Shown: in pieces, positions 3,236 to 64,000 of the stretch | Layout: every line of letters starts with the position of its first letter | How positions within the stretch are numbered: the first letter of the stretch is position 1 | Assembly: GCA_951799425.1 (NCBI GenBank) | Contig: OX637398.1 | Span: 17,866,270-17,930,269, forward strand | DNA from: Ilex aquifolium | Taxonomy: Eukaryota; Streptophyta; Magnoliopsida; Aquifoliales; Aquifoliaceae | DNA: 64,000 nucleotides | Direction: 5' to 3' | Program-made: the position numbers and the translations under genes | The notes under the pieces: generated by a model | Told to the model about the DNA's origin: nothing | What the model saw: only the letters and a program-made list of their open reading frames with translations | Database searches by the model: none

Positions 3236-3350
3236 TGTAACGCCCCTAAATCCAGGGGTCCGTTGATTACCCATCAACCCGCGGAATACCTGCAGATACC
3301 TAGTATCTCGATATCACACTGTTATGCCCCATTTACCGGGGTCCATAACT

Positions 3351-8889: not shown

Positions 8890-8910
8890 GAGCATCTCAT
8901 ATAAAGTTTT
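8890..8910. mobile_element. MITE, left end (split by LTR element)
   Basis: Starts GAGCATCTC next to a TTA (8887-8889). The rest of the same MITE resumes at 19406. Uninterrupted copies at 52217-52617, 54727-55133 and 57087-57485 show the intact form with inverted ends GAGCATCTCC...GGAGATGCTC and TTA flanks, as in PIF/Harbinger-derived (Tourist-like) MITEs. Confidence 0.75.
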
Positions 8911-9507
8911 TGTAAACCCCTACATTCTTGTCTTTATATAGTAACGTAATTAATTCGAAATGCTCATATATATGTAATGATGTAAGCATGAACTTTAAAG
9001 ATTGTAAGAGTATAAATAAAAATGTTAGGCGATGTAATAGGGTGTGTAGTAGAAGTTAGGAATTATTCTGGAGTTAAAGTACATTTTAGATAGAATTGGG
9101 GTAGGAAGGAATTTGACGCTGCTTTAGTATTTGGATCATAACTTTGTACCTTGATTTCCGTTTGATCTGAAATTTTTACAGTAGACACTAGACTTCGAGG
9201 ACTACAAAAGACTATTTCAAGAAGTTTTCCAAATCGACCTCTAAATAGGCCAAACATTCGTTGGAAGTTCAGCTATAAATGGAAGTCCGTTCGAACGTGA
9301 ATGGATCCGTTCGAACGATAGTTAGTCCCAATACTTTTGTGTCTGACATAACTCTGATGGAAAAACAAAAGTACTGGGAGGAAGCGATGTTCGAACGCCA
9401 AAATGACGTTCGAATGTTAGGTAGATAGTTCAAACATGAGGTCGCAATTCTGAGTATTAGATTTGTGACGCTTGGACTTTTTTCTCATATTGTAAATACC
9501 CAAGGAG
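8911..9507 (+). mobile_element. 5' LTR fragment of mosaic element B
   Basis: Begins TGTAAACCCC at 8911 after flank gtttt. It closely matches 17509-17825 of the downstream LTR, including paired GTTCGAAC palindromes and the stretch AAATACCCAAGGA near 9500, where LTR similarity stops and gag similarity starts. The outer flanks (gtttt at 8906-8910, atttt at 19406-19410) are a near-match target duplication. Confidence 0.75.
9289..9415 (+). repeat. Paired GTTCGAAC palindrome block in LTR B
   Basis: GTTCGAAC at 9289, 9309 and 9389 plus the variant GTTCGAAT at 9408. The two pairs are spaced 20 and 19 bp start to start, with CCCAATACTTTT and AAAAGTACTGGG forming an inverted repeat between the pairs. 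The related downstream LTR copy shows the same block at about 17613-17762. Confidence 0.85.
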
Positions 9508-10371: not shown

Positions 10372-11580
10372 CCAATTCTCTGACAAAGAATTGTTGATTT
10401 GCAACGATTAGATACAGAGTTGGGAACTATCCGGGGTAGATTGGAGAGGAATGAGGTTGTTGAGAATTGGTCTATACATAATGATGAGTTACTGTTTCGT
10501 GGAAGACTATGTGTACCAAACAATGACCAAGTAAGGGAAGAAGTGTTGGGTGAGTGCCATCGTTCAAAATTCTCCATACATCCGGGTAGTACCAATATGT
10601 ATAGAGACATGAAGCGTCAATATTGGTGGAAAGGGATGAAACAAGACGTGGCCAAGTACGTTGCAAAGTGTGCGGTGTGTCAGCAGGTGAAGGTGGAGCA
10701 TCAAAAGCCCGGAGGATTACTACAATCCTTGCCTATCCCAGAATGGAAGTGGGATCACATCACCATGGATTTCGTGTCTAGTTTACCACGGATGTCACGA
10801 GGGCATAATGTCTTATGGGTCATTGTAGATAGACTCACAAAGTCAGCTCATTTCTTGAGTATGAAGACCACTGACACTTTAGAGACCTTGACCAAGCTTT
10901 ATATCCGTGAGATTGTTAGATTACATGGAGTTACACTCTCTATTGTGTCAGATCGGGATTCTCGTTTTGTGGCGCAATTTTGGCAAAGTCTACAACGAGC
11001 TATGGGGACAGAGTTGCACTTTAGCACCGCCTTTCATCCTCAAACGGATGGCCAATCCGAGAGGGTGATACAGATTTTGAAGGATATGTTACGTGCTTGT
11101 GTGTTGGACTTCAAGGGAAGTTGGAGTGATCATTTGCCGTTGGTGGAATTTTCATATAACAATAGTTTTCAATCTAGCATTGGCATGGAACCTTATGAGG
11201 CATTGTATGGAAGACCATGTAGGTCCCCGACTTGTTGGTTGGAAGCTGGAGAGAGTAGCTTGTTTGGACCAGAAATTGTTCGGGAGACTACGGAGAAAAT
11301 TCAACTCATCCAGGAGAGACTACACACGGCACAAAGTAGACAGAAAAGCTATGCAAATAGAAGAAGAAGACCATTAGAATTCCAAGAGGGGGACTATGTG
11401 TTCCTCAAGGTGTCACCCAAAAAGGGAGTGTTTAGATTTGGCAAGAAAGGAAAATTAGCTCCAAGGTACATCGGACCATTTGAAGTGATCAAAGTGGTGG
11501 GCAAAGTGGCGTATCAACTTCGGTTACCAGCTCAGTTGTCGGGGGTACATGACGTGTTCCATGTGTCAATGTTAAGGAAG
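10372..11580 (+). pseudogene. pol: Integrase segment (zinc finger, core, C-terminal domain)
   Basis: A long open stretch (10399-11580) shows an HHCC zinc-finger region (H...H near 10559-10580, CAVCQQVK near 10670), the D,D,E core (MDFVSSLP with VDRLTKSAHFL, then SDRDSRF, then HPQTDGQSERV) and the C-terminal GPF region (APRYIGPFEVI, VHDVFHVSMLRK). It is the best preserved coding stretch in the mosaic element. A solo LTR begins immediately at 11581, and integrase-type sequence resumes after it at 14837. Fossil; not an active gene as it stands. Confidence 0.9.
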
Positions 11581-14500
11581 TGTGAAACCCCGTAAAATTT
11601 GAACTATTCACAAAGGGGCAAAACAATAACTTGCCACTATGAACGGGTTGCGAACTTGAATTTTTCTAGAGCTCGGATGATGAAACGGACTTCGCCGTTA
11701 AATTCGTCTCGCGAAATCTAGTTACCCTGTAAAATTTCATCGAATTCCGAGATAGTCGGATTTTTGCACGTCGTTCGAGGCGACTGCGTGACGAATGACA
11801 TTTTAAAGGTCCCCAATAATGGATTTTATAAAAATTCCTTATAATTGGATTAAAGTTCCAATAAAATTAATTTGGACTTAATCCGGGACTTAATGAATCA
11901 TTTCGGGACGAAAAACGAACCCGAATAAGTGGAGACGTGTGGCGCGATTAGGGCCGCACATTCCGGGACTATAAATAGGGGTTTATTTTTGATATTTTGG
12001 AAGCAAATATCACATTTTCTGGCTGTGTTCAGCCGTTCAAAGAGAGAGAGAGGGAGAAGAGAGAGAAAAGGGTTTCTTAACCCTTTCTTCGGCGATTTCT
12101 CCGGCCTCCGTCGCTCGGACTCCGTCGAGCTAGAAGGGAGAAGTGATCTACGCGACGAGGGCTACGCGTGGGTACCAAAAACAATGGTTTTCACCAAAGG
12201 TGAAAAGATGGAAGTGTACGAAAATCAAGCTTCGAGTTGGTTTTCGGGCCTTGGGAGCTTCCTACGGGATTCTCACGCTACAAGAGGTAGGGGTTCTCCT
12301 ACTTGGGTTGATTTCTTACCTAGAATGCCTATGATTATGGCTTGGTATATATATAGATATGTGTACATATTTATATGGATATAGTTATGGAATAATGAAG
12401 AAAATGGGTAGGTTGTTAGAAAAATTACACTTGCCTATTGGTGGAATTTAGGTAAAATAATTTTATCCTAAATTGGTAAGTAGAAATTGCCTATTGGAAT
12501 TTCTTGAATTATGTGGAAATTGGGCATGATATGTGTTACCATGTTTTTTGCCTTGAAGGTGTTTGACAAAATACCTAAATGGATTGAAATTGTTATATGA
12601 TAAATAACATGTTATGCCTTATGTGGTAAATGAAAATCATATGTGTACGATATGATGTATGTTGAAATTATGAATTGTTGATATATGGTTTTGATGTATC
12701 AAAGTTGAGATGAAGTATGGAATTTATATGGTTATGATGTAAATTGACATGGAATGGAATTGATTGTGTGAGATTAGTTCATATGACATTCATTATATAT
12801 GAACATGATATGCAAGTGACAATTGTTCATTGCATTGCAAATGCACGGGAACATCGCATACATGGACATTGTGTCATAGGGATGTTGTGCATGGGTGTTT
12901 ATACCACAATCTATGTGGTATTAAATGTATGTGGACATGGGCATCACATTCATGGGATGTTAGCATGGGTGTGGGTGTGTTTGTGCATGGGTATTGTACC
13001 ACAATCTATGTGGTATTAAATGCATATGGACATGAAAAGAGTTGCTCATTGGCGGTCATAGCATATTGGGCATAAGGTTGTGTCACATTCATGGGAGTCA
13101 TTCATGAGTGTGGTGGTATGGTAGTTGCATATATCAATCATCATGCTTGGTGGTTGGTGGATGGGCTCGGGAAGGTTGGATTGATTATTCAACTGAGTCG
13201 CATGGTTGCATGAAAAAGAAGAAAAAGATTGGGTCGGGGTTAGCAAGAAGGGGCAAGACGACCTCTCGGGTGCAAGGCCCGGTGTTTCGGATACGCACTT
13301 CCGTTGGTATAAGAGCCCATAAAGTGTATTGGTGTACGCGGCACCGTTGGTGGAAAGAGTCCATAAATCCTGTGTCGGTTGGGTTCCGTTGGTGGAAGTC
13401 CATAAACGCCCACCCCAAAGAAAGACCCGGAGATTTTCTTAAATTAGTTGTTGAATTTATAACATCAACGGCGGATTTTACAACACACTGACATCTCATT
13501 GTGTGTGTGGGAGCCGGGAGGGCTCGGGTTGTGTTATATGATTGAGTCTCATCTCACTCATGGCATGTTATACACATTGACATTACATTGTGTTGTCGAG
13601 CCGGGAAGGGCTCGGGGTGAGTGCATAAATGAGTCACATCTCATTTCATGATACATCAAACACGTTGGCATTAGCATTGTGTTGTGGAGCCAGGGAGGGC
13701 TCTGGTTGAGTACTTGAGTCTCATCTCATTTCATGGGGCTTAGGTAGCCCGGTTTAACATACATGGCATTGACATGTAAAGGGAGTCGGAGTGGACTCGG
13801 GTTGAGTGCACATGGGTGGGTCTCACCTCATTCATGGCATGACATTATAGCATTACATCATTTAATTGTATATTATTTGATGGAATGGTTACGGATTTAT
13901 GGATGTTGCATGTGAACATTTCATATGCATATAGGTTGAGGAGTAGCCTCTGTAGGAAATACTCTACTGGGCGTTGGCTCACCCTATACGGGAACACATT
14001 TCAGGTGGGGACTATACGTCGATGGGAGACCCTCATACGGGACCCCAAGAATGAAGAAAAGCCGACTTGTGGCTTTTATGGTTTAACTTGTAAAGTTTTC
14101 GTATGAATTCCATTTTATTGTGTAAATATATGGAATTGTATTAAATGGACTTCCATGGACTTTTGATAATGTAGACAAACATATGTATGTATGTTTGGAA
14201 TGTTGTGGAAAGGTTTTAGTTGAATTGGAAATGAGTTGGAAGTGAAAACAACAGGCTGGAAACATTCTGGGCTTGTGATTAACGTTCGAACGGCATCCAT
14301 GTTCGAACGTCGTGAGCTTGCAGTACTTGGAGTTTTCGTCTGTAAACAGTGTTTTCTTCAGACAACCAAAGTACTGGGAGCAGATAACGTTCGAACGTCA
14401 ATCCTCGTTCGAACGGTTACAACGTTCGAACGTTGGGAGCCTGCAGTACTTAGGGGTTTCTCCAACAAACAGTGTTTTCATCAGGGAACCAAAGTACTGG

Positions 14501-14836
14501 GAGCAGTCCACGTTCGAATGCCAATCCACGTTCGAACGTTGGAAGTTAAACTGAAAATTTTCTGAAACTTTAAAACTAAGTCCTTATGCTTTTGGGCTTC
14601 GACTTCCTTTCTCTTTTCGGATTTAAATGAATTCCAAATGCAATACTTTGAGGGGTATTGAACCTTGGTTTAGTTAATGAGAAAAAGGATACACGGGATT
14701 ATAAGTGTGGGATAAAATCTTATTTTAAAGGATACTATTGAAGTGATGTCGGGTTATGCGACACTCACGGGTATATTCCGCGGGTTGACGGATGCTCAAC
14801 GGTCAACATAGGACCCCCGGAAAATGGGGCGTCACA
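11581..14836 (+). mobile_element. Solo LTR of family A (3.26 kb) inside integrase
   Basis: Starts TGTGAAACCCCGTAAAA and ends GGGGCGTCACA, with no primer site or polypurine tract attached, so it is a solo LTR. Flanks ggaag (11576-11580) and ggaat (14837-14841) are a near-match 5-bp target duplication. It is the same family as arrays A and G but on the plus strand; TATAAATA lies at 11970-11977. Unlike those LTRs it carries a palindrome block (14284-14537) near its 3' end. Confidence 0.88.
14284..14537 (+). repeat. GTTCGAAC palindrome block in solo LTR A
   Basis: Exact GTTCGAAC at 14284, 14301, 14389, 14407, 14424 and 14530, with one variant at 14512. Neighbouring copies are 17-18 bp apart within each group. 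The groups are separated by two similar spacers of about 80 bp, each containing CAGTACTT... and ...AAAGTACTGGGAGCAG arms. The same design appears in the 2.2 kb LTR family. Confidence 0.9.
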
Positions 14837-15110
14837 GGAATTGTCAATCGGATACAACACATGTCGTGGATTTGGAGGGAATTGAAATTCAAGATGGAGC
14901 AACATATGAAGGACAATCGGTGGAGATTCTCGATACCAAGGAGAAGGTGCTTCGCAATAAAGTAATCCAATTGGTGAAAGTCTTGTGGCAACATCATGGG
15001 GTGGAGGAAGCTACCTGGGAACTAGAGCTGGAGATGCGAGAGAAGTACCCTCATTTGTTCTCTACTTAAGGTAAGTTTCGAGGACGAAACTTTCTTTAAG
15101 GGGGGTGGAT
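14837..15110 (+). pseudogene. pol: Integrase C-terminal tail and polypurine tract
   Basis: After the solo LTR, sequence typical of the very C-terminus of gypsy pol resumes (THVVDLEGIEI, YEGQSVEILD, KVLRNKVIQLVKVLWQHH, EEATWELE...REKYPHLF), ending at 15069. It is followed by the conserved run-out (GTTTCGAGGACGAAACTTT) and a polypurine tract AAGGGGGGTGGA at about 15099-15109, just before the LTR at 15111. Confidence 0.88.
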
Positions 15111-17372
15111 TGTAAACCCCCACATGTTTATACTAATATAGTAATGTAATTGTTTGGTAATTCTTATATATGTAATGACCTAAAAATAAACCATATAGAT
15201 TGTAACAGTACGAATAAATACTAGGGAGACAAATTGATTGTGAAGTTTAAGTTTCGAAGGCGTTTAAACTTGGGAAATGTTGTTAGGTAAGTTTCTAAAT
15301 ATTTTTAGGTCAAAATAAGATTTCCATTGAATTCGGAAGATCGAGAAACCTTGGGAGAGGTAATATGGGGTGTATTAGAAGTTAGGAAGTATTTCGGAGT
15401 TAAAATAAATTTTAGAAAGAATTCGAATAGGAAGAAATTTGACACTACCTTAGTATTTTAGCTATAACTCTTTATTTCTAATTCCAATTGATCTGAGTTT
15501 TGGACAGTAGAAACTAGACTTCAAGGGCTACAAAACTGTATTTCACGAAATTTTCTAAATCGGCTTCTAAATAGGTCAAAATCGATCTGGAAGTTGAGGA
15601 TATACTGCCACCCACGTCCGGAAGGGAATAGACACGCGTCCGAACGCGTGTCGCAGAACGTTGGGCGAAGAAACACGCGTCCGGACCCAAGAAAACACAC
15701 GTCCGGACGCACCAAGCCGGGGGCTTCATGTCCCAGACCACTTGTTGGTGTTTTCTCCACTTTTCATCTCATTTCATCAAATCTAACTCTTGAGAGCCTT
15801 AGAGGGGAAGAAGGAAGGGAAAAACAAGAGATTAAGGTGTTGATTCAAGTGGGGAAAGATCAAATCTTCTAGTTCTTCACACAAAAACTAAGGAGCAAGG
15901 TAGGGGATTCTTCTCAAGTTCTTTCATTGAGGCTTAGGGTATTACATATGTATGTTTTCAATATTCTTGATAGTTATATGGTAAATACTTATGAGTTCTT
16001 GGTTTCCTTGTTATTGAAACATAGTTTTGAACAAAATACATGTTTGGGTTCAAGAAATATTGTTCTTGAATTTCCAAAATCCTAGTTTTTCTAAATACAT
16101 GTTTGGGTTATGAAAAATACATGGATTCTTGATTTCTAAATGTCTATTCTTGATTAAATCATGTTTTCATCTAATACTTGTTCTTGTTCCAAGAAATTAT
16201 GATTTTTGGCAAAACCCTAGAATTTTGAATATCGAAATTGTGAATGTTTTCTTGATATGATCTCTTGCATATTTTAATTCCTTTATTATTGTAGTATATT
16301 AAAAATTATGAAATTGTGCTACTTGAATTGTTAATGGAAATTGTGATTTGTTAAGATTGTGGTTGTTAAGAAAATTGTGGTTTCATCTTTTGTATGGTTT
16401 GTTGTGACGGACTTGAATTGCCTTCAAGAGCTACCATAGAGTGTTAGAGGTTAGTCTATCCCAGTGGGGGTGAGATGGTTTCCTAACACTTGTAGTGTAT
16501 TGTTGTTTGTAAGAGCAACCACTATTGTTCACGTAGGTTCGGGACTGAGGGCTGGTATACCTTTCCTGGGAAGGATTCGTCAATGCCGTGGGAGACGATA
16601 TACGCCCTTCCTAAAGTAGTTTGTGATGTGCCATGCGGGGAATGATTGGTTTATGGTGGGTGAATGAGGTAGAATCGTTGTGTAGATTCCTGATAAGCAA
16701 CCAACATATATGACAATGGGACGAAACCAACATACATGAGAATATGGAATGATGTTACTGAATTATTTATGGATTGCTTTAATTTCTTGTAATTTTATTC
16801 CTGTCATTGATTTACTATATTCCGTACACTTGAGATCATTATCACTATCATGGTTTTATTCTCAAAATCTATATATACTATTTTCCAAAAGAGACTTGCC
16901 ATCTTTTATTTGTTTTAAAACCTTGTTCGAGTTTGGGAGGATGTTGCTACAGAGCTTAGTGCTCACCCCTTACAAACAATATATTTTTCAGATTATAGTT
17001 TAGAGGAGGAGCTCGGAGTTGATGAGCATATACCTTGGAAAACTCAATTGGATGAAAGCGTGGATCCCGAGGGGAACGTATAGAGTTGTTCTCTTTATGT
17101 CCTAGACTATGAGAGGATTTTGGGACAATGTATAGATGATATTTTTTTTATTCCGCTGCAAGATAATAGTTTATTTTTGATGTACTTGTCTTAGTGGGGC
17201 ATATTCTTTTTGGAGGTAATGGACATGGTTTTACATATTCTTTTGGGATGATGTTATAGATATTGTGCATGATGAATGAAATTTTCTTTACTTATGGAAA
17301 TAATTAGTTGCTCTCCTGATGTGAATGGTTTTAGATAGTAATGCCGTCCAAGGGGGATTTTGGGGCGTTACA
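15111..17372 (+). mobile_element. 3' LTR, subfamily B1 (2.26 kb)
   Basis: TGTAAACCCC at 15111 directly after the polypurine tract, ending GGGGCGTTACA at 17372. It is the same broad family as the flanking B LTR pieces but a different subfamily: its palindrome block uses TCCGGA cores (15617, 15680, 15702, variant TCCGAA at 15639) in pairs 22 bp apart rather than GTTCGAAC. It therefore does not match the 5' LTR at 8911. Confidence 0.82.
15617..15707 (+). repeat. CGTCCGGACG palindrome block in LTR B1
   Basis: Cores TCCGGA at 15617, TCCGAA at 15639, TCCGGA at 15680 and 15702. Both pairs are 22 bp start to start, embedded in CGCGTCCG / ACGTCCGGACG contexts. It sits where the GTTCGAAC block sits in sister LTRs. 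Confidence 0.8.
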
Positions 17373-19405
17373 ATAGTAGAAGTTAGGAAGTATTCTGGAG
17401 TTAAAGTACATTTTAGATAGAATTGTGGTAGGAAAGAATTTGACACTGCTTTAGTATTTGGACCATAACTTTGTACCTTGATTTCCGTTTGATCTGAAAT
17501 TTTTACAGTAGACACTAGACTTCGAGGACTACAAAAGAGTATTTCAGGAAGTTTTCCAAATCGACCTCTAAATAGGCCAAACATTCGTTGGAAGTTCAGC
17601 TATAAATGGAAGTCCATTCGAACGTGAATGGATCCGTTCGAACAATAGTTAGTCCCAGTACTTTTGTGCCTGACAGAACTCTGATGGAAAAGAAAAAGTA
17701 CTGGGATCAAGCGATGTTCGAACGCCAAAATGACGTTCGAATGTCAGGTAGATAGTTCGAACCTGAGGTCGCGATTCTGAGTATTAGATTTGCGCCGCTT
17801 GGACTGTTTTCTCATACTATAAATACCCAAGGATGTCTTCCCTTTGCCATATTTCATCAGTTCTAACCCTAGAGAGTCTTGGAGATCAAGAAAGAAGAGG
17901 AGAAACACGAGATTAAGGAGAATTTTCACGTTGGAACGAACCAAACACGCTAGGTTTTAACACAAAACTATGGAATCGAGGTAGGGGATTCTTCTTGAGT
18001 TCTTTTATTGAGACTTAGGGTATTATCTATGTATGTTTTCAATCTTCTTGATTGTTATATGATAAATATTTATGAGTTCTTCGTTTCTTTATCTTTGAAA
18101 CATGGTTTTGAACAAAATAAATGTTTGGGTTCAAAGAATACTTGTTCTTGAATTTCCAAAACCCTAGTCTTGCTAAATACATGTTCTATTGTGAAATTCA
18201 TATGGATTCTTGATTTCTAAATTCATATTCTTGATTAAATCATGTTTTCATCTAATACTTGTTCTTGTTCTAAGAAATTATAATTTTTGGCAAAACCTAG
18301 AATTTTTAATATCGAAATTCTGAAGGTTTTCTTGATATGATCTCTTGCATATTTTAATTCCTTTTTTACTATAGTATATTGAGAATTGTGAAATTGTGAT
18401 ACTTGAATTGTTAATTAAAATTTTGATTGGTTAAGATTGTGGTTATTGAGAAAGTTGTGATTTCATCTCTTGTATGGTTTGGGTGTGACGGACTTCAATT
18501 GCCTTCGAGAGTTACCGTAAAGTGTTAGAAGTTAGTCTATCTCAATGGGGGTGAGATAGTTGCCTAACACTTGTAGTGGATTATTTTTTGTGAGAGCAAC
18601 CACTATTGTTCACGTAAGTTCGAGACTGAGGGATGGTATACCTTTCCTAGGAAGGATTCGTCAATGTCGTGAGAGACGGTATACGCCCTTTCTAAAGTGG
18701 TTTGTGATTTGGCCCTGCGTGGAATGATTGGGATAATGTGGTTGTGATGGGTGAACGAGGTAGAATCGTTGTGTAGATTTCTGAGAAGCAACCAATATAC
18801 ATGAGAATATGGGATGATGCTACTGAGTTATTTATTGAATGCTTTAATTTCTTGAATATTTATTCCTTTCATTGATTTACTGTATTCCGTACACTTGAGA
18901 TCATTACAACTGTCATAGTTTTACTCTAAAAAAAAATTTATATATGCAATTTTCCAAAAGAGACTTGTCTTCTTTTGTTGTTTTAAAACCTTGTTTGGAT
19001 TTGAGAGGGATTTTCTATGGGCTTTTGTTCACCCCCTACAACACATTACAGATTTTGGTAACGCGGAGGATGTCGAGTTAGATGTACAGGTTGATCTCGA
19101 GACTGGAGAGGTTCGGTATGATGATCCTGAAGTAGAGGCTTAGAGATGCTTTTTTTAGTTCTAATTATTGTATTTGGAGAGATTTTTGTGGAACAAATTT
19201 TTTAGTTAGTATTATTATTCCACTGCTAGATATTCTTTGGTTTTGGATTGTATGTTGGAGAAGTTTTAATGTTTTGTTGGTTTTAGTATTTATTATTTAT
19301 CTGGTAAATGAATTGTTCATTATCTAATGGTTATTTTTAGTTGTTCTCATGGTTGAATGGTTTGTAGATAGTAACGCCTTCCAGGGTGGATTTTGGGGCT
19401 TTACA
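17373..19405 (+). mobile_element. LTR B copy lacking its first ~136 bp
   Basis: Abuts the end of LTR B1 and starts inside the LTR (TAGTAGAAGTTAGGAAG, equivalent to about 9046). It matches the 8911-9507 fragment closely where they overlap and ends GGGGCTTTACA at 19405. TATAAATA is at 17818-17825. With 8911-9507 it forms the outer LTR pair of a mosaic whose middle comes from a B1-type element, which points to recombination between related elements. Confidence 0.75.
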
Positions 19406-19882: not shown

Positions 19883-22082
19883 TGTAACACCCCGCATTTT
19901 CTTTTATATATGTCTATAGATATATAGTAACGTAATTATGTTTTTGAAATGCAAATATATATGTAATGATGTATGCATGAGCTACGTAGATGATAAGATT
20001 AGAAATAAAAGGTTAGTGGAGGTAATAGTGTATGTTGTAGAAAGTTGGAAGTATTTTGGAGTGAAATCGCGTTTTTGAGATATTTTAGGTAGAAGAATTT
20101 TAGACACTGCCTTAGTGTTTGGATCATAACTTTTTATCATGATGCCCAATTGATCTGAAATTTCGACAGTAGATAGTAGACATCCAGGGCTACAAAAGTG
20201 TATCTCACGAACATTTTCCAAATCAATCTCTATATAGGCCAAAATTTCACTGGAAGTTTCAGCAGAAACTGGGATGACGTTCGAACGTGAATCGACGTTC
20301 GAACGTGAGGGAGTCCCAGTATTTTGGTGTCTGCAGAGCTCTGATGAAAATGCAAAAGTACTGGGAGCAACCAACGTTCGAACGCCAAAGTGACGTTCGA
20401 ACGTAAATCAATATATTGCACTGTTGACGTTCGAACGCCAATGACGTTCGAACGTGAGTTACGAATTCTGACTTTCAGAATCGCGCACATGAGGCCAATT
20501 CTTCCCCTATAAATACTTAAGGACACTCTTATAAGCCCCATTTCAACATTTATAACCCTAGAAAGGTTTAGAGAGGAAGAAAGAAGGGGAAAACACAAGA
20601 TCAAGGGTAGATTTGCATATTGAAGAAGATCCAATCTTCATCTTCTTCACTCAAAAACTAAAGAAGCAAGGTAGGGGATTTCTTCTCTTTCTCTTACATT
20701 GAGGTTAGGGCTTATGTATATATGTATGTTTTTCTCTAAATGTTATATATATGATATGAAATCATCCTCTCTTAGTCTTTTGGGCAAAGATTACATGTTT
20801 TTAACAAAGTTAGGGTTGAATACCCATGAAATCTCTTTTTGTGTTTCAAAACCCTAGTTTTTTTTGGAGAGTGATGGATTTTCTTCTTAAATTCTTCCTT
20901 GATTATTGATTTTGAAACCATAGTGCTTTGTGTTGAGTGATAAAATGATGTTGTGGTTATCTCTTGTATTTTTATAATTGTTTATCGAAATTGTCATGTG
21001 ATAAATTTGGGGGTTTTTAAGATATACTTGTAAATTGTGAAATTGTGATTGGTATTGTATCTCTTATGAGTGTGGGATGACCATGGGTGGCCTTTGACGA
21101 GATATCGTAGAGTGGGTAGACGTGTTGCTTGCTCCGTGTGGGTTGGCATTTCTCCTACCACTCGTAGTGGGGTTAGTGCTTTGGTAAGACTAAACCGCTA
21201 TTGCTCACGGGTGCCGTGTAAGAGGGTTAGTATACTAATACCTGGGTTGGATACGTCACTGCCATTGGTGTGGCATACGCTCTTCCTAAAGGATGGATAT
21301 CTTTGATAAGATTTGTGTGGGTGTGTGTGGGCTAGATATTACTCAATGTGTTGATTCATGGGGTTTGTCTTACATCATGTTTGAGATACATATACATATG
21401 GATGAATTGTTGTATTATTGTGGAAAATGGTTTCCTACAAGGATTTGTGGGAGTATGGGATTCCACAAGGCCTTGTGGGAAAATGGTTTATATTCTGGAA
21501 AATGGATATGTATTGGATCTTTGTTTCTTTTACTGTTCATTTAAATTACTGTTGCTACTTAAACTTGAGATCCATTTTAAAATGCCCCTGTTTTACTTCA
21601 AAGATTATGTATGTTATTTGTAAAATGAGACCGGCCATTTTATATGTTTTGATAAACCTTGTTTGGGTTTGGGAGGAATGTTGCTACGGAGCTTAGTGCT
21701 CACCCCCTACAAATTACATTTTTCAGATACGGTGCTAGAGGAGAACCTCGGAGTGGACGAGCAGGGGTATTGGGAGGCCCCATTCGAGGGAAATCTAGAT
21801 CCCGAGGTGGACATATAGAGATATAGCTTCTTTTGTACTAGACTAGAGAATTTATTTTGAGATCATGTATCATCTAGTATTCTGTTTATTCCGCTGCTAA
21901 GTTTAAGTATAATTCTTTTGGAATGTAATTGCCATAGCTTGGCTTATTCTTTTGGGATGATATTGTAAATTCTATGGATGATGAATGGAAAAATTTTCTT
22001 ATTGATGGATTATCTTAGTGCTCTCATTATGTAAATGGTTTTAGAATGTAATGTCGTCCAGGGTGTGTTTTGGGGCGTTTCA
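19883..22082 (+). mobile_element. Element C, 5' LTR (2.2 kb)
   Basis: TGTAACACCCC at 19883 to GGGGCGTTTCA at 22082, followed by a tRNA-Met primer site. About a dozen differences, mostly transitions, were seen by eye against the 3' LTR at 24784, so the insertion looks young (well under a million years at usual plant LTR rates). TATAAATA at 20508-20515 lies about 55 bp after the palindrome block. The left flank gttct (19878-19882) is matched at 29098-29102. Confidence 0.92.
20278..20454 (+). repeat. Six CGTTCGAACG palindromes in three pairs (element C 5' LTR)
   Basis: CGTTCGAACG at 20278, 20296, 20375, 20394, 20428 and 20445. Pair spacings are 18, 19 and 17 bp. Between pairs one and two, CCCAGTATTTT and AAAAGTACTGGG form an inverted repeat. 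The block ends about 55 bp upstream of the TATA box. The 3' LTR has the same block at about 25179-25355. Confidence 0.93.
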
Positions 22083-24783: not shown

Positions 24784-26982
24784 TGTAACACCCCGCATTT
24801 TCTTTTATATATGTCTATAGATATATAGTAACGTAATTATGTTTTTGAAATGCAAATATATATGTAATGATGTATGCATGAGCTACGTAGAAGATAAGAT
24901 TAGAAATAAAAGGTTAGTGGAGGTAATAGTGTATGTTGTAGAAAGTTGGAAGTATTTTGGAGTGAAATCGCATTTTTGAGATATTTTAGGTAGAAGAATT
25001 TTAGACACTGCCTTAGTGTTTGGATCATAACTTTTTATCATGATGCCCAATTGATCTGAAATTTCGACAGTAGATAGTAGACATCCAGGGTTACAAAAGT
25101 GTATCTCACGAACATTTTCCAAATCAATCTCTATATAGGCCAAAATTTCACTGGAAGTTTCAGCAGAAACTGGGATGACGTTCGAACGTGAATCGACGTT
25201 CGAACGTGAGGGAGTCCCAGTACTTTGGTGTCTGCAGAGCTCTGATGAAAATGCAAAAGTACTGGGAGCAACCAACGTTCGAACGCCAAAGTGACGTTCG
25301 AACGTAAATCAATATATTGCACTGTTGACGTTCGAACGCCAATGACGTTCGAACGTGAGTTACGAATTCTGACTTTCAGAATCGCGCACATGAGGCCAAT
25401 TCTTCCCCTATAAATACTTAAGGACACTCTTATAAGCCCCATTTCAACATTTATAACCCTAGAAAGGTTTAGAGAGGAAGAAAGAAGGGGAAAACACAAG
25501 ATCAAGGGTAGATTTGCATATTGAAGAAGATCCAATCTTCATCTTCTTCACTCAAAAACTAAAGAAGCAAGGTAGGGGATTTCTTCTCTTTCTCTTACAT
25601 TGAGGTTAGGGCTTATGTATATATGTATGTTTTTCTCTAAATGTTATATATATGATATGAAATCATCCTCTCTTAGTCTTTTGGGCAAAGATTACATGTT
25701 TTTAACAAAGTTAGGGTTGAATACCCATGAAATCTCTTTTTGTGTTTCAAAACCCTAGTTTTTTTTGGAGAGTGATGGATTTTCTTCTTAAATTCTTCCT
25801 TGATTATTGATTTTGAAACCATAGTGCTTTGTGTTGAGTGATAAAATGATGTTGTGGTTATCTCTTGTATTTTTATAATTGTTTATCGAAATTGTCATGT
25901 GATAAATTTGGGGGTTTTTAAGATATACTTGTAAATTGTGAAATTGTGATTGGTATTGTATCTCTTATGAGTGTGGGATGACCATGGGTGGCCTTTGACG
26001 AGATATCGTAGAGTGGGTAGACGTGTTGCTTGCTCCGTGTGGGTTGGCATTTCTCCTACCACTCGTAGTGGGGTTAGTGCTTTGGTAAGACTAAACCGCT
26101 ATTGCTCACGGGTGCCATGTAAGAGGGTTAGTATACTAATACCTGGGTTGGATACGTCACTGCCATTGGTGTGGCATACGCCCTTCCTAAAGGATGGATA
26201 TCTTTGATAAGATTTGTGTGGGTGTGTGTGGGCTAGATATTACTCAATGTGTTGATTCATGGGGTTTGTCTTACATCATGTTTGAGATATATATACATAT
26301 GGATGGATTGTTGTATTATTGTGGAAAATGGTTTCCTACAAGGACTTGTGGGAGTATGGGATTCCACAAGGCCTTGTGGGAAAATGGTTTATATTCTGGA
26401 AAATGGATATGTATTGGATCTTTGTTTCTTTTACTGTTCATTTAAATTATTGTTGCTACTTAAACTTGAGATCCATTTTAAAATGCCCCTATTTTACTTC
26501 AAAGATTATGTATGTTATTTGTAAAATGAGACCGGCCATTTTATATGTTTTGATAAACCTTGTTTGGGTTTGGGAGGAATGTTGCTACGGAGCTTAGTGC
26601 TCACCCCCTACAAATTACATTTTTCAGATACGGTGCTAGAGGAGAACCTCGGAGTGGACGAGCAGGGGTATTGGGAGGCCCCATTCGAAGGAAATCTAGA
26701 TCCCGAGGTGGACATATAGAGATATAGCTTCTTTTGTACTAGACTAGAGAATTTATTTTGAGATCATGTATCGTCTAGTATTCTGTTTATTCCGCTGCTA
26801 AGTTTAAGTATAATTCTTTTGGAATGTAATTGCCATAGCTTGGCTTATTCTTTTGGGATGATATTGTAAATTCTATGGATGATGAATGGAAAAATTTTCT
26901 TATTGATGGATTATCTTAGTGCTCTCATTATGTAAATGGTTTTAGAATGTAATGTCGTCCAGGGTGTGTTTTGGGGCGTTAC
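24784..26982 (+). mobile_element. Element C, 3' LTR (last base displaced to 29097)
   Basis: TGTAACACCCC after the polypurine tract, near-identical to 19883-22082, TATAAATA at 25409-25416. It runs to GGGGCGTTAC at 26982, where solo LTR D begins. The gttac there and gttaa at 29092-29096 fit a target duplication made by D; base 29097 is then the last base of this LTR and gttct at 29098-29102 is the right target copy of element C. Confidence 0.9.
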
Positions 26983-29091
26983 TGTAACACCCCAAAATAC
27001 ACCTTGGAAGCATTACTAGCCAATCACCATTCACATCATGAGAGCACTAAATAAATCCATAAACAATAAAGTTTCATCCATCAATCATTGATATTTAAAC
27101 AAAATTCGGGCAGAGTTTCCTTTGTACGGGGAGCTCTACCCAAAACTCAACCTGTGCAATTATACTATAATTGACCACACCGAGTCCCCAGATGCATCAT
27201 AACATAAACTTTCATTCAACATATATCACATCCACACTATCATCCCAAAAGAATAGGCCAAACAATGGCATTTACATTCCCAAAAGAATTTAAACCATAA
27301 TACGCAGCGGAATTTACAAAAGATAACTAGACTACACACAGTTTCAAAAGAATATTCTAGTCTAGACAAAAGTAGGCATCAGCTCTAAATATCCCACGCG
27401 GGATCCAAGTATCCCTCTAGGGAAACCTCTCCATGGCCTGGTTCACTAGCACCGAGCTCATCCTCAGGCACAAGATCTGAAAAAGTTTAGCAGTAGGGGG
27501 TGAGCACGAAGCTCTGTAAGAAAAATCCTTCCAAACCCAAACAAGGTTTAGAAAAGTGTATAAAACGGCCGGTCTTGTTTCGCAATTAACATATATAACA
27601 TTTGAAGTAAAACAGTGACATTTAACCATGATCTCAAGTTTAAATAGCAAGAATAAATTGAAGGGATGAATAACCACAATACACCATTTCAAATCCATTC
27701 TACCATTAATCATTTCAACAAGTTCTCCAAGGAATCCCATACTTCCCGAGAATCTTATCGAAATCATTTCTGGTATAATGCACGATAACCCACACTGTAT
27801 GTCCGATACAACCCACGTTACTAATCCGTTACCATTAGTGATAGGAAAAGTTCGTATCCACACGGCGTACAAAGGCGTCTACCCACTCTAAGTGGTAGGA
27901 AAAGTTCATACCCGTGTGGCATCCGAAGACGTCCACCAGCTACATGATACCCGGCCAATAGTAAACCATGTTTGTATCGTACAATCACACAAGAGGTAAA
28001 ATACCAACCAATAATCCCCATAATCAAAAATAGCATAAAACCCCCAATTTCCTTTCAAGCAATTTCCATAAAATCCACAATTTCATCATGAGGCAATTTC
28101 AAAGAAATCATGAAGAAAAATCCAAGAGATCATGTATAATAGCCTTTCAATACTCAACACAAGCACTATAGTTTCCAAATTGAGAATAAAAGAAGAGTTC
28201 AAGAGGAAAACCCAACACTCTTGAAAACTAGGGTTTTTCAAGCAAAAGAGGGATTTCATGGTATACAACCCTAAACTTGTGTACAACATGTGAATAATTG
28301 CAAGAGAATCAAGAAACAACATACCCATAGCAAATACACATCATTAAGAGTCCAAAACATACATATATCATAACCCTAATCTCAATGTAAGTGAATGGAA
28401 GGAAAACCCCTACCTTAGATCAAGACTTTAAACTTAGAACCCAAGTTCTTGTGATCTCCTCCTTCCCTTTTCTCCCTTCTTGATCTTCCTCTAGAGTCCT
28501 AAGAGAAGTGGGTTGAGAGTGGAATGAGAGAAATGAGGAAAAATGGGAGGAAATGGTGTTATATTTCGGCCAAATCCCGATTTTTACTGTTCACAGTCTG
28601 TTTTGGGGGTTCTCCGAACTTACTGTTTTCCTTATTTTTGACCATGATACACTTTGAATCTGAAAAAGTGAAAAACATGAAAGTTGTAGATCTAGATTTC
28701 TTCGGCATTGTGTCAAAATTTCAGCTCAATCGGACCATTGTAGCAAGAGTTATGACAATTCTACGACAACTGGTCCGGAGTAGGCAGCATACCAGGAGGC
28801 GCGCCTCAGCGCCCATTTGGGCGCCCCAGCGCCCACATTCTGTCCAAAATGGCTCCCCTTTTCATTTCCAATCCAATTTTAACCCTTCCACTCTAATCCT
28901 AACTTATCCCACATACTTTTCTACATCAACCTAATTAGTTCAAGTTTTATTATGATTTATTTTGTACATTTACATACCGAAACTAATCTTTAACTACTCT
29001 TTCCTTGAGTTATACTATTTTAACATTTCAAATGAAATAATTACTAAACACCTATGTCTTTTATTTTTATATACGCATGTGGGGTATTACA
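26983..29091 (-). mobile_element. Solo LTR D (2.1 kb) at the tip of element C
   Basis: Plus-strand ends TGTAACACCCCAAAAT and GTGGGGTATTACA, so a TG...CA LTR read on the minus strand, with no primer site or polypurine tract. It carries the GGGCAGAG/GGGTCC-type cassette near its 3' end (27097-27187) and a GCGCC-rich repeat pair at 28798-28836. Flanks gttac/gttaa are a near-match target duplication. It has a partial resemblance to the other 2.1-2.3 kb LTRs. Confidence 0.87.
28798..28836. repeat. GCGCC-rich repeat pair in LTR D
   Basis: GCGCCTCAGCGCCCA (28801-28815) and GCGCCCCAGCGCCCA (28821-28835), start-to-start 20 bp, preceded by the palindrome GGCGCGCC at 28798. It occupies the same neighbourhood relative to the conserved LTR core as the other palindrome blocks. 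Confidence 0.75.
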
Positions 29092-29753: not shown

Positions 29754-31311
29754 TGTAACGCCCCAAAAATCGGGGGTCATTATTTTAACAAAATTCGGGC
29801 AGAGTTTCCTTTGTACGGGGAGCTCTACCCAAAACAAAACCTGTGCAATTATACGACATTGACCACACTGGGTCCATTTATAAGTAAACATTGACCACAC
29901 CGGGTCCATTTATCCATACTCATATAACCACATGCAATTCATCTTTTACATTACATTAAAACAGTCCATATCCACTTTGGACGACATTACTATCTAAAAC
30001 CATTCACGATCATGAGAGCGACCAAATAACTTCGTAATCAAAAGAATTTAATACACCATTTACCATAAATACAATGTCATCCAAAAGAATGTGCCCAACT
30101 ACGGCACTTCCATCCCCAAAAGAATCAGACTAATTCTGTGCAGCGGAATAACAAAATATTGGGTTTTACAAAGTCTCAATCTAGAACAAAAGAAGGTAAT
30201 GCTCTAAGCATCCACCTCGGGATCCATACTCCCGTCGATCGGAGTCTCCCAATGTACTGGCTCCTCGACTCCCAGCTCATCCTCAAGTGTATAATCTGAA
30301 ATGTGGGTAGGTAGGGGGGGTGAGCACGAGACTCTGTAGGAAAATCCTTCGTAACCCGAACAAGGTTAATAAAAGCATATGAAATGGTCGGTCTCACTTT
30401 ACAATTAACATATCTAATTTTTGAAGTAAAACAAGGGCATTTTAAAATAGATCTCAAGTTTAAGTAGCAACATTAAATTAAATGAGCAGTAACAAAAAAA
30501 CCCAGCTACAATAAATAACCATTTCCAAAATATAAACTATTTTTCCACAAGACCTTGTAGAATCCCATACTTCCACAAGTCCTTGTAGGAAACCATTTCC
30601 ACAACAATAACAGTAATTCATAACTCAAATATTCTACAACAATATGTATATGTATCTCAAACATGATGCGAGGCGAACCCCATGAATCAACACATTGAGT
30701 AATATCTAGCCCACACACACACACACAAATCTTCTCAAAGATATCCATCCTTTAGGAAGGGCGTATGTCATACCAATGGCAGTGACGTATCCAACCCAGG
30801 CATTAGTATACTAATCTTTTTCCACGGTACCCCGTGAGCAATAGTGGTTTAGTCTTACCAAAGCACTAACCCCACTACGGGTGGTAGGAAAAATGCAAAC
30901 CCACACGGAGCAAGCAACACGTCTACCCACTCTACGATATCTTGTCAAAGGCCACCCATGGTCATCCCACACTCATAAGAGATACAATACCAAACTCAAT
31001 TTCTCAATTTACAAGCATATCTCAAAAATCTCCAAATTTATCATGTGACAATTCCAATAACCAATTAAGAAAAATACAAGAGCTCACAACAACATCATTT
31101 TATTACTCAACACAAAGCACTATAGTTTCGAAATCAATAATAAAGGAAGAATTTAAGAAAAAAATCCATCACTCTCCAAAAACTAGGCTTTTCAAGCAAG
31201 AAAAGAGATTTCATGGGTATTCAACCCTAACTTTGTTCAAAAACATGTAATCCTTGCAAAAAAAAGAATAAGAGAGGATGATTTCATATCATATATATAA
31301 CATTTAGAGGC

Positions 31312-53080: not shown

Positions 53081-53084
53081 GTGA

Positions 53085-59116: not shown

Positions 59117-62100
59117 TGTGACGCCCCAATTTCCGGGGGTCCTTTATTAACCGTTGACCATCCGTCAACCCGCGGAAATACTCGTGATAGTCGTATAACC
59201 CGACACCACGTCATTCACATGTTTTTAACCGGATTTACCATCCACAAGATCAATTATACCTCAAATTATGTCCATTTATGTCATAGGAACCAAAGAAAAC
59301 CAAGCCCAAAAGCATGGCTAAGCATTTTGAAAATTTCAAATTTTTGGAAAACCTTCCGGAAGGTTTTGACTCAACCTTCCGGAAGGTTTGCTCACTGGAA
59401 AAGTTCTTCCGGAAGGTTTTTCTTAACCTTCCGGAAGGTTTTGCCTTCTGGAAATAGATTGAAAAAATGAAACGTGTCGGCCTTCCGGAAGGTGTACTCA
59501 AACCTTCCGGAAGGTTTTGCTCACTGGAAAGGTTCTTCCGGAAGGTTTTTCAATCCCAATTCAACCAAAACCATTCCATTTCCATCCCAAACATGGATAA
59601 CTATATTTTCCACATTATACATGTTCTATACAAGTTCCATAGCATAAAATTCCACATTTTTACACATCAAAAGTGAAATTTTATAAAAGTTTTACAAAAC
59701 TCAACCCAAGGCCACAAGCCGGCCCCCTTCATGCTTGATGCTCTCCAAGTGAGCCATCCGCCGGTGCAAAACTCACACCTGAAAATGTTGTCCCGCGAAG
59801 GGTGAGCCACGCTCAATAGGATATCCTCCTACAGAGATTACTCCCCAACCTAAGTGCATATGAAATGCGCACACGCAACAAATCAACAAGCATCAACCAA
59901 TCTAACAAGAATATATACCTCAATGTTAGAAAGCTACCATGCTATGCTATGTCATGCCATGATTTGAGATGGAACTCACTCATGCACCTTGTCCCGAGTC
60001 TTCCCCGACTCACACCACACAATGCAAAAGCCAATGTGTATGAACCCGTCTATTGACGGAAAAACCCTCACAATGATCGTTTGAATTAAAAGTTATGTCT
60101 TTATAAAAACCCAATCATTGTTGGAGGCTACCCATTGAATGGGTGTTTTTATACAACAAAATCTTGTGTCTTCCTGGGCAACGGATTTTGGAATCGCACC
60201 GCCGGCTCCGTGGGCCTATCTACACTTTTTGGACTTGCACCGTCGGAGTGTATGAACCAGTGGTTCCGGGTTTTTCACCCGAGGGAGTGTCTAGCCCTAC
60301 TTGCTTTACCCGACACAAGTTTTCCTTATGCAATGCAACCGTGCAACTCAGTCGGATCTTCGATCCCGACTTTCCCGAGTTCACATACCAACCACCAAGA
60401 TTTGGTGTTTGATCCACAACACATGCACACACCCACACTCATGCCTATGACCCATGAATGTGATGTCAACTCACCCACACACACTCATGTCTTATAACTA
60501 TGAATGTGATGTGCCCATGAGAATGCAATGTAATTTACCCTTGCATCTTCTCCACATGTTCAATATGTATGAATGCCATATGAACAACTCAACAATAAAT
60601 CCACCTATCCATGGTACTTCATATCATAAGCATATGCATATAAATACCATAATTCAACACTTTGTCAACACCTCGTAAGCATGTGCATATCAACGTTTTC
60701 CTTAATCACAATATCTAAGCATGTTATACATAGTTCATGCAAAACATACTTCACATTTTCATCGAAACATTTACTCAACACCTTCAAGGCATCCAAGATC
60801 ATGTAATCACATAATATACTCAAATTCATCATAAAGCTCAAGAAATCATATCAATTGATTTCTACACAATTATTACACATCTACATTTCCTTACACATAA
60901 CATCCAACAACAAATCCGAAAGCATGTTTTCACAATTCCCATGCAATTTAACACACTTAAATCCCTATTGGCATTTAAACAAACACTATGCAAGCATACA
61001 ATCATATAATCATAATCATGCTCAATTCTCCTCACATGGATCAAGAACTCACATAAGTGACTTTCACTCGATCAATTCAAGATACAATTTATTCTATCTA
61101 TTCCTTAATGTTCATATATCATACTTTCTCAAGAAATTATTTAGAACCATTTCTAAATGTCCATTTCATTTAGAAGTTCACTTTACCCAATTTCCCATAT
61201 CAATTTTCCATACTCCAAGCTCTTTTATAAAATTTACCCAACAAGTAAATATATGCACCCATTTCATACCAACCTTGCTTAGCACATTTGGCACCCATTT
61301 CCTACACATGAAATCCATTGGTGGTACATTAAACTAGAGAATGTGATTTAAATCATACCACCCATTCTCAATACCCACTTCATCCAATTAACCACAATAG
61401 GCAAGTGATACATATATATATACACCTACCCATTCCATATAACTTTCCTAAGTTGGAAATAAACCTAAGTAGGAAGAAAACCCTACCTCTTGTAGCGTGT
61501 AGAATCGCCATGGGAAGCCCCTAGAACTCAAAGCAAGCTTGAATCCTTCACTTCCAAATTTTCGGCCCTCCAACGTTCGGTGAAAACCGTCGTTTTTGGT
61601 ACCCACGTGTAGCCCTCGACGCGTAGAGCAACTCTTGTTCTTGGCCCGAGTCGATTTGAGCGCTAGAACGGAGTAGATCGTAGAGAGAAGGTGGAGTTTT
61701 CTCTCATTTTCCCTCTCTTCTTTTCTCTCGGCTGAAACCGGCTGAATGGTGAAGGTGAAGTCTGATTTTTCAGACTTTAGGCTCCTATTTATATTTTTAG
61801 AATACTTGGCCCACAATTGGCCACACGTCCCTTTTAATTCCGGGTTCGTTTTAATCCCGAAACGATTAAATTTCGCTCCGGTTCGAGTTCAAAATATTTT
61901 TATTTTAACTTGCCTCTAATATTTTCCCAAACTTTAAAATTTTATAAAAATTTCGTGTACGGGGTCACCCGAGGCCCGTTCGTCTCGTAAAACGCGAAAA
62001 ATCCGACTATCTCGGAATTCAACGAAATTTGACGTGGTAACTAGATTTCGCGAGACGAATCCAACGGTGAAATCCGTTTCGTCATTCGAGATCTAGAAAA

Positions 62101-62182
62101 ATTCAGTTTTTCAACTAGTCCCGAAGTGGCAATTCACCTATTGCCCTTGTTCGTCAAAGTTTAAATTTTCCGGGGTTTCACA
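59117..62182 (-). mobile_element. Element H, LTR (3.07 kb)
   Basis: TGTGACGCCCC at 59117 to GGGTTTCACA at 62182, minus-strand reading, next to a polypurine-like tract, so it is the 3' LTR of an element running off the window. Family A organisation, TATA box (minus TATAAATA) at 61786-61793. Near the 3' end it carries seven CTTCCGGAAGG palindromes instead of the GGGTCC cassette. Open frames such as 60855-61337 have no family signature. Confidence 0.87.
59352..59545. repeat. Seven CTTCCGGAAGG palindromes in the LTR of element H
   Basis: Full or near-full CCTTCCGGAAGG at 59352, 59375, 59406, 59427, 59481, 59503 and 59535. Three pairs are 22-23 bp start to start; spacers repeat TTTTGCTCACTGGAAA. 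The block lies about 235-430 bp from the LTR 3' edge, close to where solo LTR A has its GTTCGAAC block. Each core fits TTCnnGAA. Confidence 0.93.
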
Positions 62183-64000
62183 TTCTTCCCCCCTTCACAC
62201 CCTCATGCCCATTCGACTATATGCATAAGTTACAACAATACTGTCTAAATTGTCCCACATGTATCCGTCTCACTCCCGGACTAGGTTCTAGACGCAACCA
62301 AGTCCGTCCGTAAAGGCACCACATATCCCGTGTATACAACCTGCAGAATTCCTCCTGTGTGAAGGTCATCCGCACTGTCAAAGGGCGTGCCGACTTAGTA
62401 AGCCGGTCCACTCTCACCCACACCGCATCATGTCCCCGCGATGTCCGTGGCAAGTGGGTCACAAAACCCATTGTGACATGCTCCCACTTCCACTCAGCCA
62501 CCTCCAAGGGCTAGAGCAGCTCTGTTAGTCTCTAGTGCCCAGCCTTCACCTGTCGACATGCGAGACATCTACTGACAAGGTTTTCAACGTGTCTCTTTAT
62601 TCTACTCCAATAACACTGGTGATGAAGATTATGGTACATCTTCGTGCCACCTAGACGTACCCGGTCTCTGATAGATAACAATTCTGGGTCCTATCCGTGG
62701 GAATCGATCACTCTGCTCAGTAGGGAAAGCATAGTCACCAAGCTCCCTAAAATACCCTGAGTCTGACCCCGATAATACAGCCCGTACTGTCCTACACTCT
62801 CAAGCATCCGCCACTCTCGGTGAGCCACACTAGCCACAACTTCTTGTGACTTCCGGCTAAGTGCATTAGTTACCACATTTGCCTTACCCGGATGATAATG
62901 CAAAGTGAAGTCGTAACCCTCCAAATATTTCATCCACCTGCGTTGCCTCATGTTAAGGTCCCGTTGTGTAGAGATATATCTCAGACTTTTGTGGTCTGAT
63001 AAAGCCTCAAACTTCTCACCATATACGTAGTGGCGCCAAGCTTTCAAGGCAAGATAATGGCCGCCAACTCCGTGTCACGTATAAGATAATTTTGCTTGTG
63101 GTTCTTTAGTTGTCCAGAACCATAAGCCACCGTTCTCGCGAACTACATTAATACCCATCCATGTCCGTCCTTAGAAGCATCACAGTTCACTGTGTACTTC
63201 TGTCCCCTCTCCGGAACTACTAGAATAAGAGGTGCAGTAAGCTTCCTCCATAAATTTGGTCATTAGTACCAAAGCGCCCCAAGGTGAAGTATTTGGTCTA
63301 ACGAAGTTCTTGTTCAACAATTCTTGTATTCGGACCTAGAGTTTTCACAACTCTACTGGTTCCATTCTATGCAGAGTCATAGAAATGGGCGATGTACCGG
63401 GATGCAACTCAATGGTAAATTCTACATTCCTATGCGTAGGTAATCCCGGTAGTTCATCCGAAAAATATCCCCACACTCACAGACAACCCGAGGTAGACCC
63501 AACTCTTGTCTCACCTCGTCCTCCAAGATAAGGCTCGCAAGCCAACCCATCTACCATTCGTGCCAACGGAAACCATACACGATTTGGGATAAAGAGTCGT
63601 GCTTTTCCCCCTGGAATTTGAAACAAACACCATTCGGTGTGTAAGCAGTGATCCTCTTACGATCACAATCAACGACGACGCGGTGTGTCGTCAATCAATC
63701 CATTCTCAGGATGGCATCAAACCCGACATGTCCACGACCCTAAGGTCCATAGTGAGTAGAGTCCCCAAGATCTCTAACTCACAACCGTCATATCTGATCA
63801 ATGCAGGCCCTAGTCCCTAAGGTGGAATTCACCCCTGAGGACTCTTCTAGGGTTATAATATTTAAAACTGTACCATGCACAAAACATGAAAAATAACGGT
63901 ATTTGACACGCTCAAGTCAAATAACACGTGTACCCATAAATAAGGAATAAGTGATGTACCGTGGGTCGCTGCCTGATCCCCCGACTCACTCTATGGTGCA
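62183..64000 (-). pseudogene. pol: Element H interior: protease, RNase H and integrase fossils
   Basis: On the minus strand, reading from high to low coordinates: a protease-region remnant (about 63820-63590), an RT-edge remnant (about 63500-63250), RNase H (63047-62691: KAWRHYVYGEKFEALSDHKS, then [15 protein letters not shown]), an integrase zinc-finger region in other frames (about 62690-62510), and the integrase core start (62507-62330: FVTHLPRTSRGHDAV, then VDRLTKSA). Closest in the window to remnant F. Several breaks; not an active copy. Gag, primer site and the other LTR would lie right of the window. Confidence 0.82.

Follow-up and report, generated by a model that had tools for sequence, protein, structure and literature searches.

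Clustered CG-centred palindromes in the LTRs of Ty3/gypsy-type elements of Ilex aquifolium look like a counterpart of the palindromic boxes of Sireviruses

Sireviruses, which belong to Ty1/copia, contain palindromic repeated-motif (RM) boxes in the CpG islands of their LTRs (Bousios et al. 2010, PMC2829016). In the sections of that paper drawn on here, the TATA box follows the CpG island by 37 bp on average, the boxes bear a CGG-CCG signature that is missing from Tnd-1, and box letters vary by element (e.g., CGGTCGACCG, GTCGGACGTCCGAC, and ACAATCGATTGT). The authors suggested that different boxes bind different nuclear factors and, contrasting them with classic Ty1/copia elements, called RM boxes Sirevirus specific; the same sections name a box I in the U3 of Tnt1. 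LTR palindromes of maize Sireviruses are peaks of small RNAs (Bousios et al. 2016, as related in parts of PMC10760457 and PMC5311732). Plant Del LTRs are described as having plastic 5′ CpG islands, the cluster that holds all eudicot elements showing a main pattern without such islands (Cruz et al. 2014, parts of PMC4029996), and no word beginning with "palindrom" occurs in the main text of that paper.

We analyzed one window, the whole stretch of 64,000 nucleotides, which domain matches and PBS identify as a nest of Ty3/gypsy-type LTR elements. Profile matches place an RNase H-like ORF (9865-10371) upstream of integrase (10384-11595), the Ty3/gypsy order; these ORFs sit between blocks A and L3 (below), which does not imply their assignment to individual LTRs. 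A gag match is present, a Ty3_capsid match falls below its cut-off, and the chromodomain match at 14839-15066 is weak and below cut-off (E 0.0069). The PBS TGGTATCAGAG occurs at four sites, 22087 (+) and 3222, 36513, and 40559 (-). Del/Tekay elements are chromodomain-bearing Ty3/gypsy elements with long LTRs and a tRNA-Met PBS, defined by phylogenetic placement of RT. Long LTRs, a weak chromodomain match, and a TGGTATCAGAG PBS, taken as hallmarks of these plant chromoviruses, suggest that the elements of this window probably belong to the Del/Tekay lineage, an assignment by hallmark. LTR orientation was set from PBS and TATA boxes (LTR position 626 in 2.2-kb and ~390 in 3.2-kb LTRs), and U3 and U5 were assigned from the same marks rather than from transcript ends. 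The LTRs are as follows.

19883..22082, + strand: 2.2-kb LTR C, a 5′ LTR, with the PBS TGGTATCAGAG at 22087
24784..26982, + strand: 2.2-kb LTR D, the 99.4% identical partner of LTR C
15111..17372, + strand: 2.26-kb LTR E, related to LTR C
17374-19041, + strand: LTR of the 2.2-kb family, start missing
from 8911, + strand: LTR of the 2.2-kb family
26983..29091, - strand: LTR G, related to the 2.2-kb LTRs, starting at 29091
start ~32091, - strand: related LTR of the 2.2-kb family
11577..14836, + strand: 3.26-kb LTR L3, TATA box at 11970
59117..62183, - strand: 3.07-kb LTR K, of the 3.2-kb family like L3
3236-6437, - strand: LTR of the 3.2-kb family
32480-43455, - strand: LTR array of the 3.2-kb family

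LTR L3 sits between the integrase end and the chromodomain-like stretch of another element. The array at 32480-43455 comprises three 2.9-kb LTR copies and two internal stretches, with a period of 4046 and 99.97-99.99% identity; either this LTR-internal-LTR-internal-LTR array formed very recently or it reflects the assembly. At 5453-6242, a 398-bp tandem duplication (100% matches) doubles the promoter region and yields one TATA box at LTR position 390 and another at 788. Elsewhere, 51087-59117 consists of tandem units of 2.4-2.5 kb, with subrepeats of 21, 63, and 113 bp within 52745-57905; a stretch related to these units occupies 6438-8910, and an alcohol-dehydrogenase-like gene fragment lies at 46174-46707 (-).

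Blocks of short palindromes lie within these LTRs, as listed here.

9288..9436, + strand: block A, five copies of CGTTCGAACG (two perfect, two with one change, one decayed)
17615..17763, + strand: block B, five copies of CGTTCGAACG, each with one or two changes
20278..20454, + strand: block C, six perfect CGTTCGAACG
25179..25355, + strand: block D, six perfect CGTTCGAACG, absent from the preliminary description
15615..15709, + strand: block E, four CGTCCGGACG-type palindromes, one a perfect 10-mer, steps 22/41/22
14283..14538, + strand: block L3, in U5, seven CGTTCGAACG-type palindromes, five perfect, in two units of ~123 bp
59348..59549, - strand: block K, in U5, seven perfect CTTCCGGAAG, steps 23/30/22/54/22/31
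28796..28835, - strand: GCGCC-rich cluster in LTR G, four GCGCC, steps 8/12/8

Blocks A, B, C, and D share a plan, consisting of a pair, inverted AGTACT arms, and a second pair, followed by one or two more copies. In block C, the inverted repeat TCCCAGTATTTTG...CAAAAGTACTGGGA lies between two pairs and a third pair comes after; block D is a near-identical copy of block C. All 24 occurrences of GTTCGAAC in the window lie in blocks named by the preliminary description or in the block at 25180-25354. That description, which had proposed a layout of paired palindromes in at least six LTRs, gave a distance of 17-20 bp for the CGTTCGAACG pairs, and the within-pair steps agree. Two of the CGTTCGAACG blocks that it listed, at 9289-9415 and about 17613-17762, are present, the former with just two perfect 10-mers and the latter with none among its five copies, three of which keep the 8-bp core and all of which keep TTCGAA. 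The 22-bp step reported for TCCGGA pairs is likewise found in block E, although its letters (15617-15707) comprise three TCCGGA and one TCCGAA. The reported CTTCCGGAAG pairs 22-23 bp apart do not describe block K fully: its seven copies, at 59353-59544, have steps of 22-31 bp and one of 54, and form an array that is in part duplicated (about 129 bp) rather than simple pairs. The GCGCC-rich pair said to be 20 bp apart exists as a cluster, but its palindromes GAGGCGCGCCTC (GC-centred) and GGGCGCCC are unlike, making it a weak member of the set. No CG-centred 8-bp palindrome was found in the minus-strand LTR from ~32091, nor at the U5 end of either 3.2-kb-family copy beginning at 3236 or 32480. 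In LTR 3′ ends at 3236-3500 and 32480-32750, a GGCCRCACYGGGTCC-like repeat pair and a hairpin-like GGGCAGAGTCTCC...GGGAGCTCTACCC replace the palindromes; both also occur in an LTR end of the other family (29754-29940), and this stretch is perhaps a further module common to the two LTR families.

The palindrome clusters of CGTTCGAACG, CGTCCGGACG, and CTTCCGGAAG far exceed chance. The window contains 19 pairs in which the same CG-centred 8-bp palindrome recurs after 10-35 bp, against simulated means of 0.03 (1-kb pieces) and 0.06 (200-bp pieces) and a maximum of 1 (100 runs for each piece size). Block B has none of these pairs, all of which belong to A, C, D, E, L3, and K, and the sole other identical 8-bp palindrome pairs at this distance are AT runs. 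Perfect CG-centred palindromes of at least 10 bp number 28, compared with a simulated mean of 9.8 and a maximum of 19 (30 Markov-1 runs). When the distance is widened to 400 bp, six more pairs of identical 8-bp palindromes other than AT runs appear in the window, and none is CG-centred. The palindromes are no product of chance, but the independent cases number two or three rather than the six counted earlier.

The CGTTCGAACG module is in U3 in the 2.2-kb family and in U5 in the 3.2-kb family. A TATA box, TATAAATA, lies at 20508..20515 (+), ~52 bp past the end of block C, and the corresponding box for block B is ~53 bp downstream, at 17818, so that the gap between block and TATAAATA is 52-53 bp in LTRs B, C, and D. 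In LTR A, a TATA-like site that has decayed is found equally far from the block, and in LTR E a TATA box was not found. The blocks of the 3.2-kb LTRs L3 and K lie 231-298 bp from the LTR 3′ end, block L3 being the one at 298 bp. The U5 placement of block L3 fits the dimensions given for a rice element with LTRs longer than 3.2 kb, in which U3 spans 1-244, R ~2 kb, and U5 ~1 kb (the part of PMC3485330 that describes it).

Within each family, different palindromes occupy the same place between alignable flanks: CGTTCGAACG at 20278 stands opposite CGTCCGGACG-type copies at 15615 in the 2.2-kb family, and CGTTCGAACG at 14283 stands opposite CTTCCGGAAG at 59353 in the 3.2-kb family. In the 2.2-kb family, lineages keep 68-75% aligned identity in the left flank of the block, yet block E is unlike block C; blastn pieces of LTRs E and C flanking the block are 74% and 78% identical, and E matches C at 187/275 positions of the left flank compared with 45/107 in the block outside palindromes. 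L3 and K have both flanks in common, but not the block. Alignments of blocks E and K with C, and of K with L3, scored no higher than shuffles. The first palindrome and spacer of E and C still align (CGTTCGAACGTGAATCGA versus CGTCCGGAAGGGAATAGA), providing the single site at which the two halves of a palindrome appear to have changed together, the outer letters of CGTCCGGAAGGGAATAGA now being asymmetric. Block C matches the reverse complement of L3 with a score of 76 (maximum of 100 shuffles, 24), and 33 with palindromes masked (maximum of 200 shuffles, 18). The plus orientation gives 64 (shuffle maximum 27) and, when masked, 30 (maximum 20); the match appears in both orientations since the module comes close to being an inverted repeat. 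Judged from these scores, the CGTTCGAACG blocks of the 2.2-kb and 3.2-kb LTRs are one homologous module, and the earlier observation that the block occurs in both families therefore stands as one shared module, not repeated invention. The idea that letters differ while layout is kept holds in that different palindromes take the same LTR position, and fails in that spacing depends on the motif (17-20 bp for CGTTCGAACG, 22 for CGTCCGGACG, 22-31 plus 54 for CTTCCGGAAG). Given the homology of the module, motif-dependent spacing, and the U3 versus U5 locations, the proposal that selection acts on the arrangement rather than on one sequence is not supported. We entertain, tentatively and with considerable doubt, a portable cassette, in which the module would be exchanged between the two LTR families (U3/U5) and its palindromes would switch letters in matched halves, sharing and re-tuning sites for a few host factors.

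Palindromes outlast their surroundings in some comparisons and not in others. CpGs are kept more often in palindromes than outside the block in C-A (10/14 versus 1/17, p 0.0004), C-B (9/14 versus 7/37, p 0.005), and C-E (9/10 versus 10/39, p 0.0003), with no such excess in B-E (6/10 versus 13/31, p 0.47), B-A (8/11 versus 6/9, p 1), or C-D (18/18 versus 29/32, p 0.54), the last being 99.4% identical copies that afford little power. In L3-K the relation is reversed (0/7 versus 47/110, p 0.04), which fits replacement of the block. The seven comparisons thus comprise three that favor palindromes, three without difference, and one reverse, and their p-values are rough, given the small counts and the kinship of the LTRs. 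A different alignment, of the block and its near flanks, gave 10/15 versus 0/18 for C-A and 9/15 versus 1/17 for C-B. Sequence identity in C-A is 45/50 in palindromes and 72/96 elsewhere in the block (p 0.048); post hoc removal of the decayed fifth palindrome of A gives 38/40 versus 79/106 (p 0.005), a figure on which we do not rely. The two L3 units are identical at 38/40 palindrome positions versus 70/93 others (p 0.007), whereas identity is equal in A-B (46/50 and 88/96) and similar in the K units (30/30 versus 29/31, p 0.49). Of 29 CGTTCGAACG copies, 28 retain an intact TTCGAA core, compared with 46 of 58 outer CpGs (p 0.05); without near-copies B and D, the values are 17/18 for the central CpG and 30/36 for outer CpGs. 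Decay of individual palindromes, which the preliminary description would have counted against its proposal, is seen in part: 10 of the 13 changes in these copies are C-to-T or G-to-A, nine of the 10 at outer CpGs, and some changes in A and B are common by descent. Observed/expected CpG is 1.84 in block C, compared with 0.73 and 0.46 on its two sides, and ranges from 1.3 to 1.8 in A, B, C, D, E, and L3.

We favor, with a probability of roughly 0.55, the reading that the blocks are clusters of two-fold-symmetric binding sites for host proteins, serving as an LTR enhancer in chromovirus-like Ty3/gypsy elements. From the palindromes, their position, their replacement, the homology of the module, and the retention of CpGs in three of seven comparisons, all observed here, we infer protein binding, a dimer, enhancer action, and the kind of factor. 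A dimeric host factor would bind the CG-centred palindromes 50-230 bp before the TATA box of 2.2-kb LTRs and drive transcription, making the block a promoter-proximal U3 enhancer; different palindromes presumably answer to different factors. Turnover of the block would be fast, through replacement, duplication, or exchange between elements, so that related LTRs carry different palindromes while their flanks stay alignable. The U5 copies of the 3.2-kb LTRs may also act on transcription, and enhancers are able to do so from U5, although the enhancer reading does not predict that position. Also counting against it are the LTRs of both families that have no block and the small number of lineages, which are mutually related and come from one window. 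Neutral, minisatellite-like growth, whereby a palindrome that arose by chance where the LTR changes fast would multiply through slippage and duplication into functionless repeats, seems unlikely to us. It would account for the missing blocks, the predominance of C-to-T and G-to-A changes, the duplicated units inside L3 and K, and the four of seven CpG comparisons in which constraint is unsupported. The plain minisatellites contemplated earlier describe only two of seven blocks, since TRF (score of at least 40) reports arrays at 14282-14538 (L3) and 59353-59454 (K), and the other five are not head-to-tail arrays. Neutral growth also leaves unexplained why three different motifs should all be CG-centred palindromes when no other non-AT pair is, and why palindromes outlast spacers in C-A and between L3 units and their CpGs outlast others in C-A, C-B, and C-E.

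Two further alternatives concern the transcript and the CpGs. U3 and U5 are both transcribed, and palindromes pairing in the transcript could form hairpins that feed small-RNA silencing or promote RNA dimerization. Predicted folding of the blocks is strong (z of -6.2, -8.1, -8.5, and -3.8), and in maize Sireviruses small RNAs map preferentially to the LTR regions rich in palindromes (parts of PMC10760457 and PMC5311732). However, these z values do not discriminate because any repeated palindrome folds well, and consensus folds of six module copies showed no covariation gain (terms +0.95 and +1.14), with 4/39 and 4/38 pairs changed on both sides in some sequence; this result says little because core pairs hardly vary. 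Hairpins as the selected feature, an earlier suggestion, thus gain nothing from folding, and with the TATA-adjacent position left unexplained we regard an RNA-level role as quite unlikely. Still less probable is that dense CpGs matter as a CG-methylation platform or protected island, and not the palindromes as such. The CpG ratios of six blocks and the variable 5′ CpG islands of monocot Del LTRs (parts of PMC4029996) would agree with this, but block K has an ordinary ratio of 0.87 with all seven copies perfect, LTR G has 0.73, block C is only 47% GC over 191 bp, and palindromy would be unnecessary. Palindrome-targeted integration was set aside, the relevant part of PMC6911290 giving merely a slight preference and none for Tekay (p 0.61). 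Nothing on palindromes appeared in the part of PMC11656987 consulted. In viral contigs, the integrase protein of the window had no relative; the palindrome-pair pattern occurred in four stretches and the AGTACT-arm pattern in three, and these seven loci, having no blastn match to the window (1e-5), were taken as chance matches. The heat-shock element, TTCnnGAA, fits CTTCCGGAAG and not TTCGAA, and was dropped. The tRNA B box, which GTTCGAA resembles, was dropped as well because the last base does not fit in most copies, and so was a cell-cycle TTYGAA element.

Returning to the reading of the blocks as clusters of protein-binding sites, the literature matches listed included no earlier report of such boxes in LTRs of Ty3/gypsy elements, Del, or Tekay, and no LTR title among those listed for the literal palindrome strings other than the GCGCC one. 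As far as the literature was searched, what is new is the occurrence in this superfamily, the presence of copies in U5, and a module common to two LTR families. If confirmed genome-wide, palindromic LTR boxes would be shared by Ty1/copia and Ty3/gypsy, the two great groups of LTR retrotransposons in plants, and would not be a Sirevirus peculiarity, and the host factors on which plant transposons rely would become directly testable, from palindrome to protein. The sharing between U3 and U5, if true, would mean that LTR control modules move between families.

Compared with the Sireviruses as portrayed in the sections cited, the blocks have a repeated dyad-symmetric palindrome in a CpG-rich upper half of the LTR, with letters that depend on the element. 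Copies number 4-7 per LTR here and 3-14 per 3′ LTR in Sireviruses (Table 3, PMC2829016); the Sirevirus criterion of at least eight copies per whole element includes the linker, whereas ours are counted per LTR only. The short distance before the TATA box is also similar in B, C, and D, though not in L3 or K. Unlike Sireviruses, the elements here are Ty3/gypsy-type by domain order and have a second location in U5, and the CGG-CCG core is missing: CGTTCGAACG has none of it, and CGTCCGGACG and CTTCCGGAAG hold CCGG, the opposite order. As in the described maize Sirevirus hotspots, palindromes cluster where the LTR is cis-regulatory and show strong predicted structure and high variability, a likeness drawn from sequence alone and in another superfamily. 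With the Del islands, as far as described, they share richness in CpG, poor conservation, variable length, and a place toward the 5′ side of the LTR, and the lineage is probably the same. Tandem U3 repeats of Tnt1 turn over between subfamilies, and the symmetric or repeated U3 cis-elements here similarly appear to differ between subfamilies; Tnt1 differs in being a Ty1/copia element with short LTRs and other motifs. Set beside the Sirevirus boxes (the sections of PMC2829016 cited), the blocks of this window look like a Ty3/gypsy counterpart of the same design.
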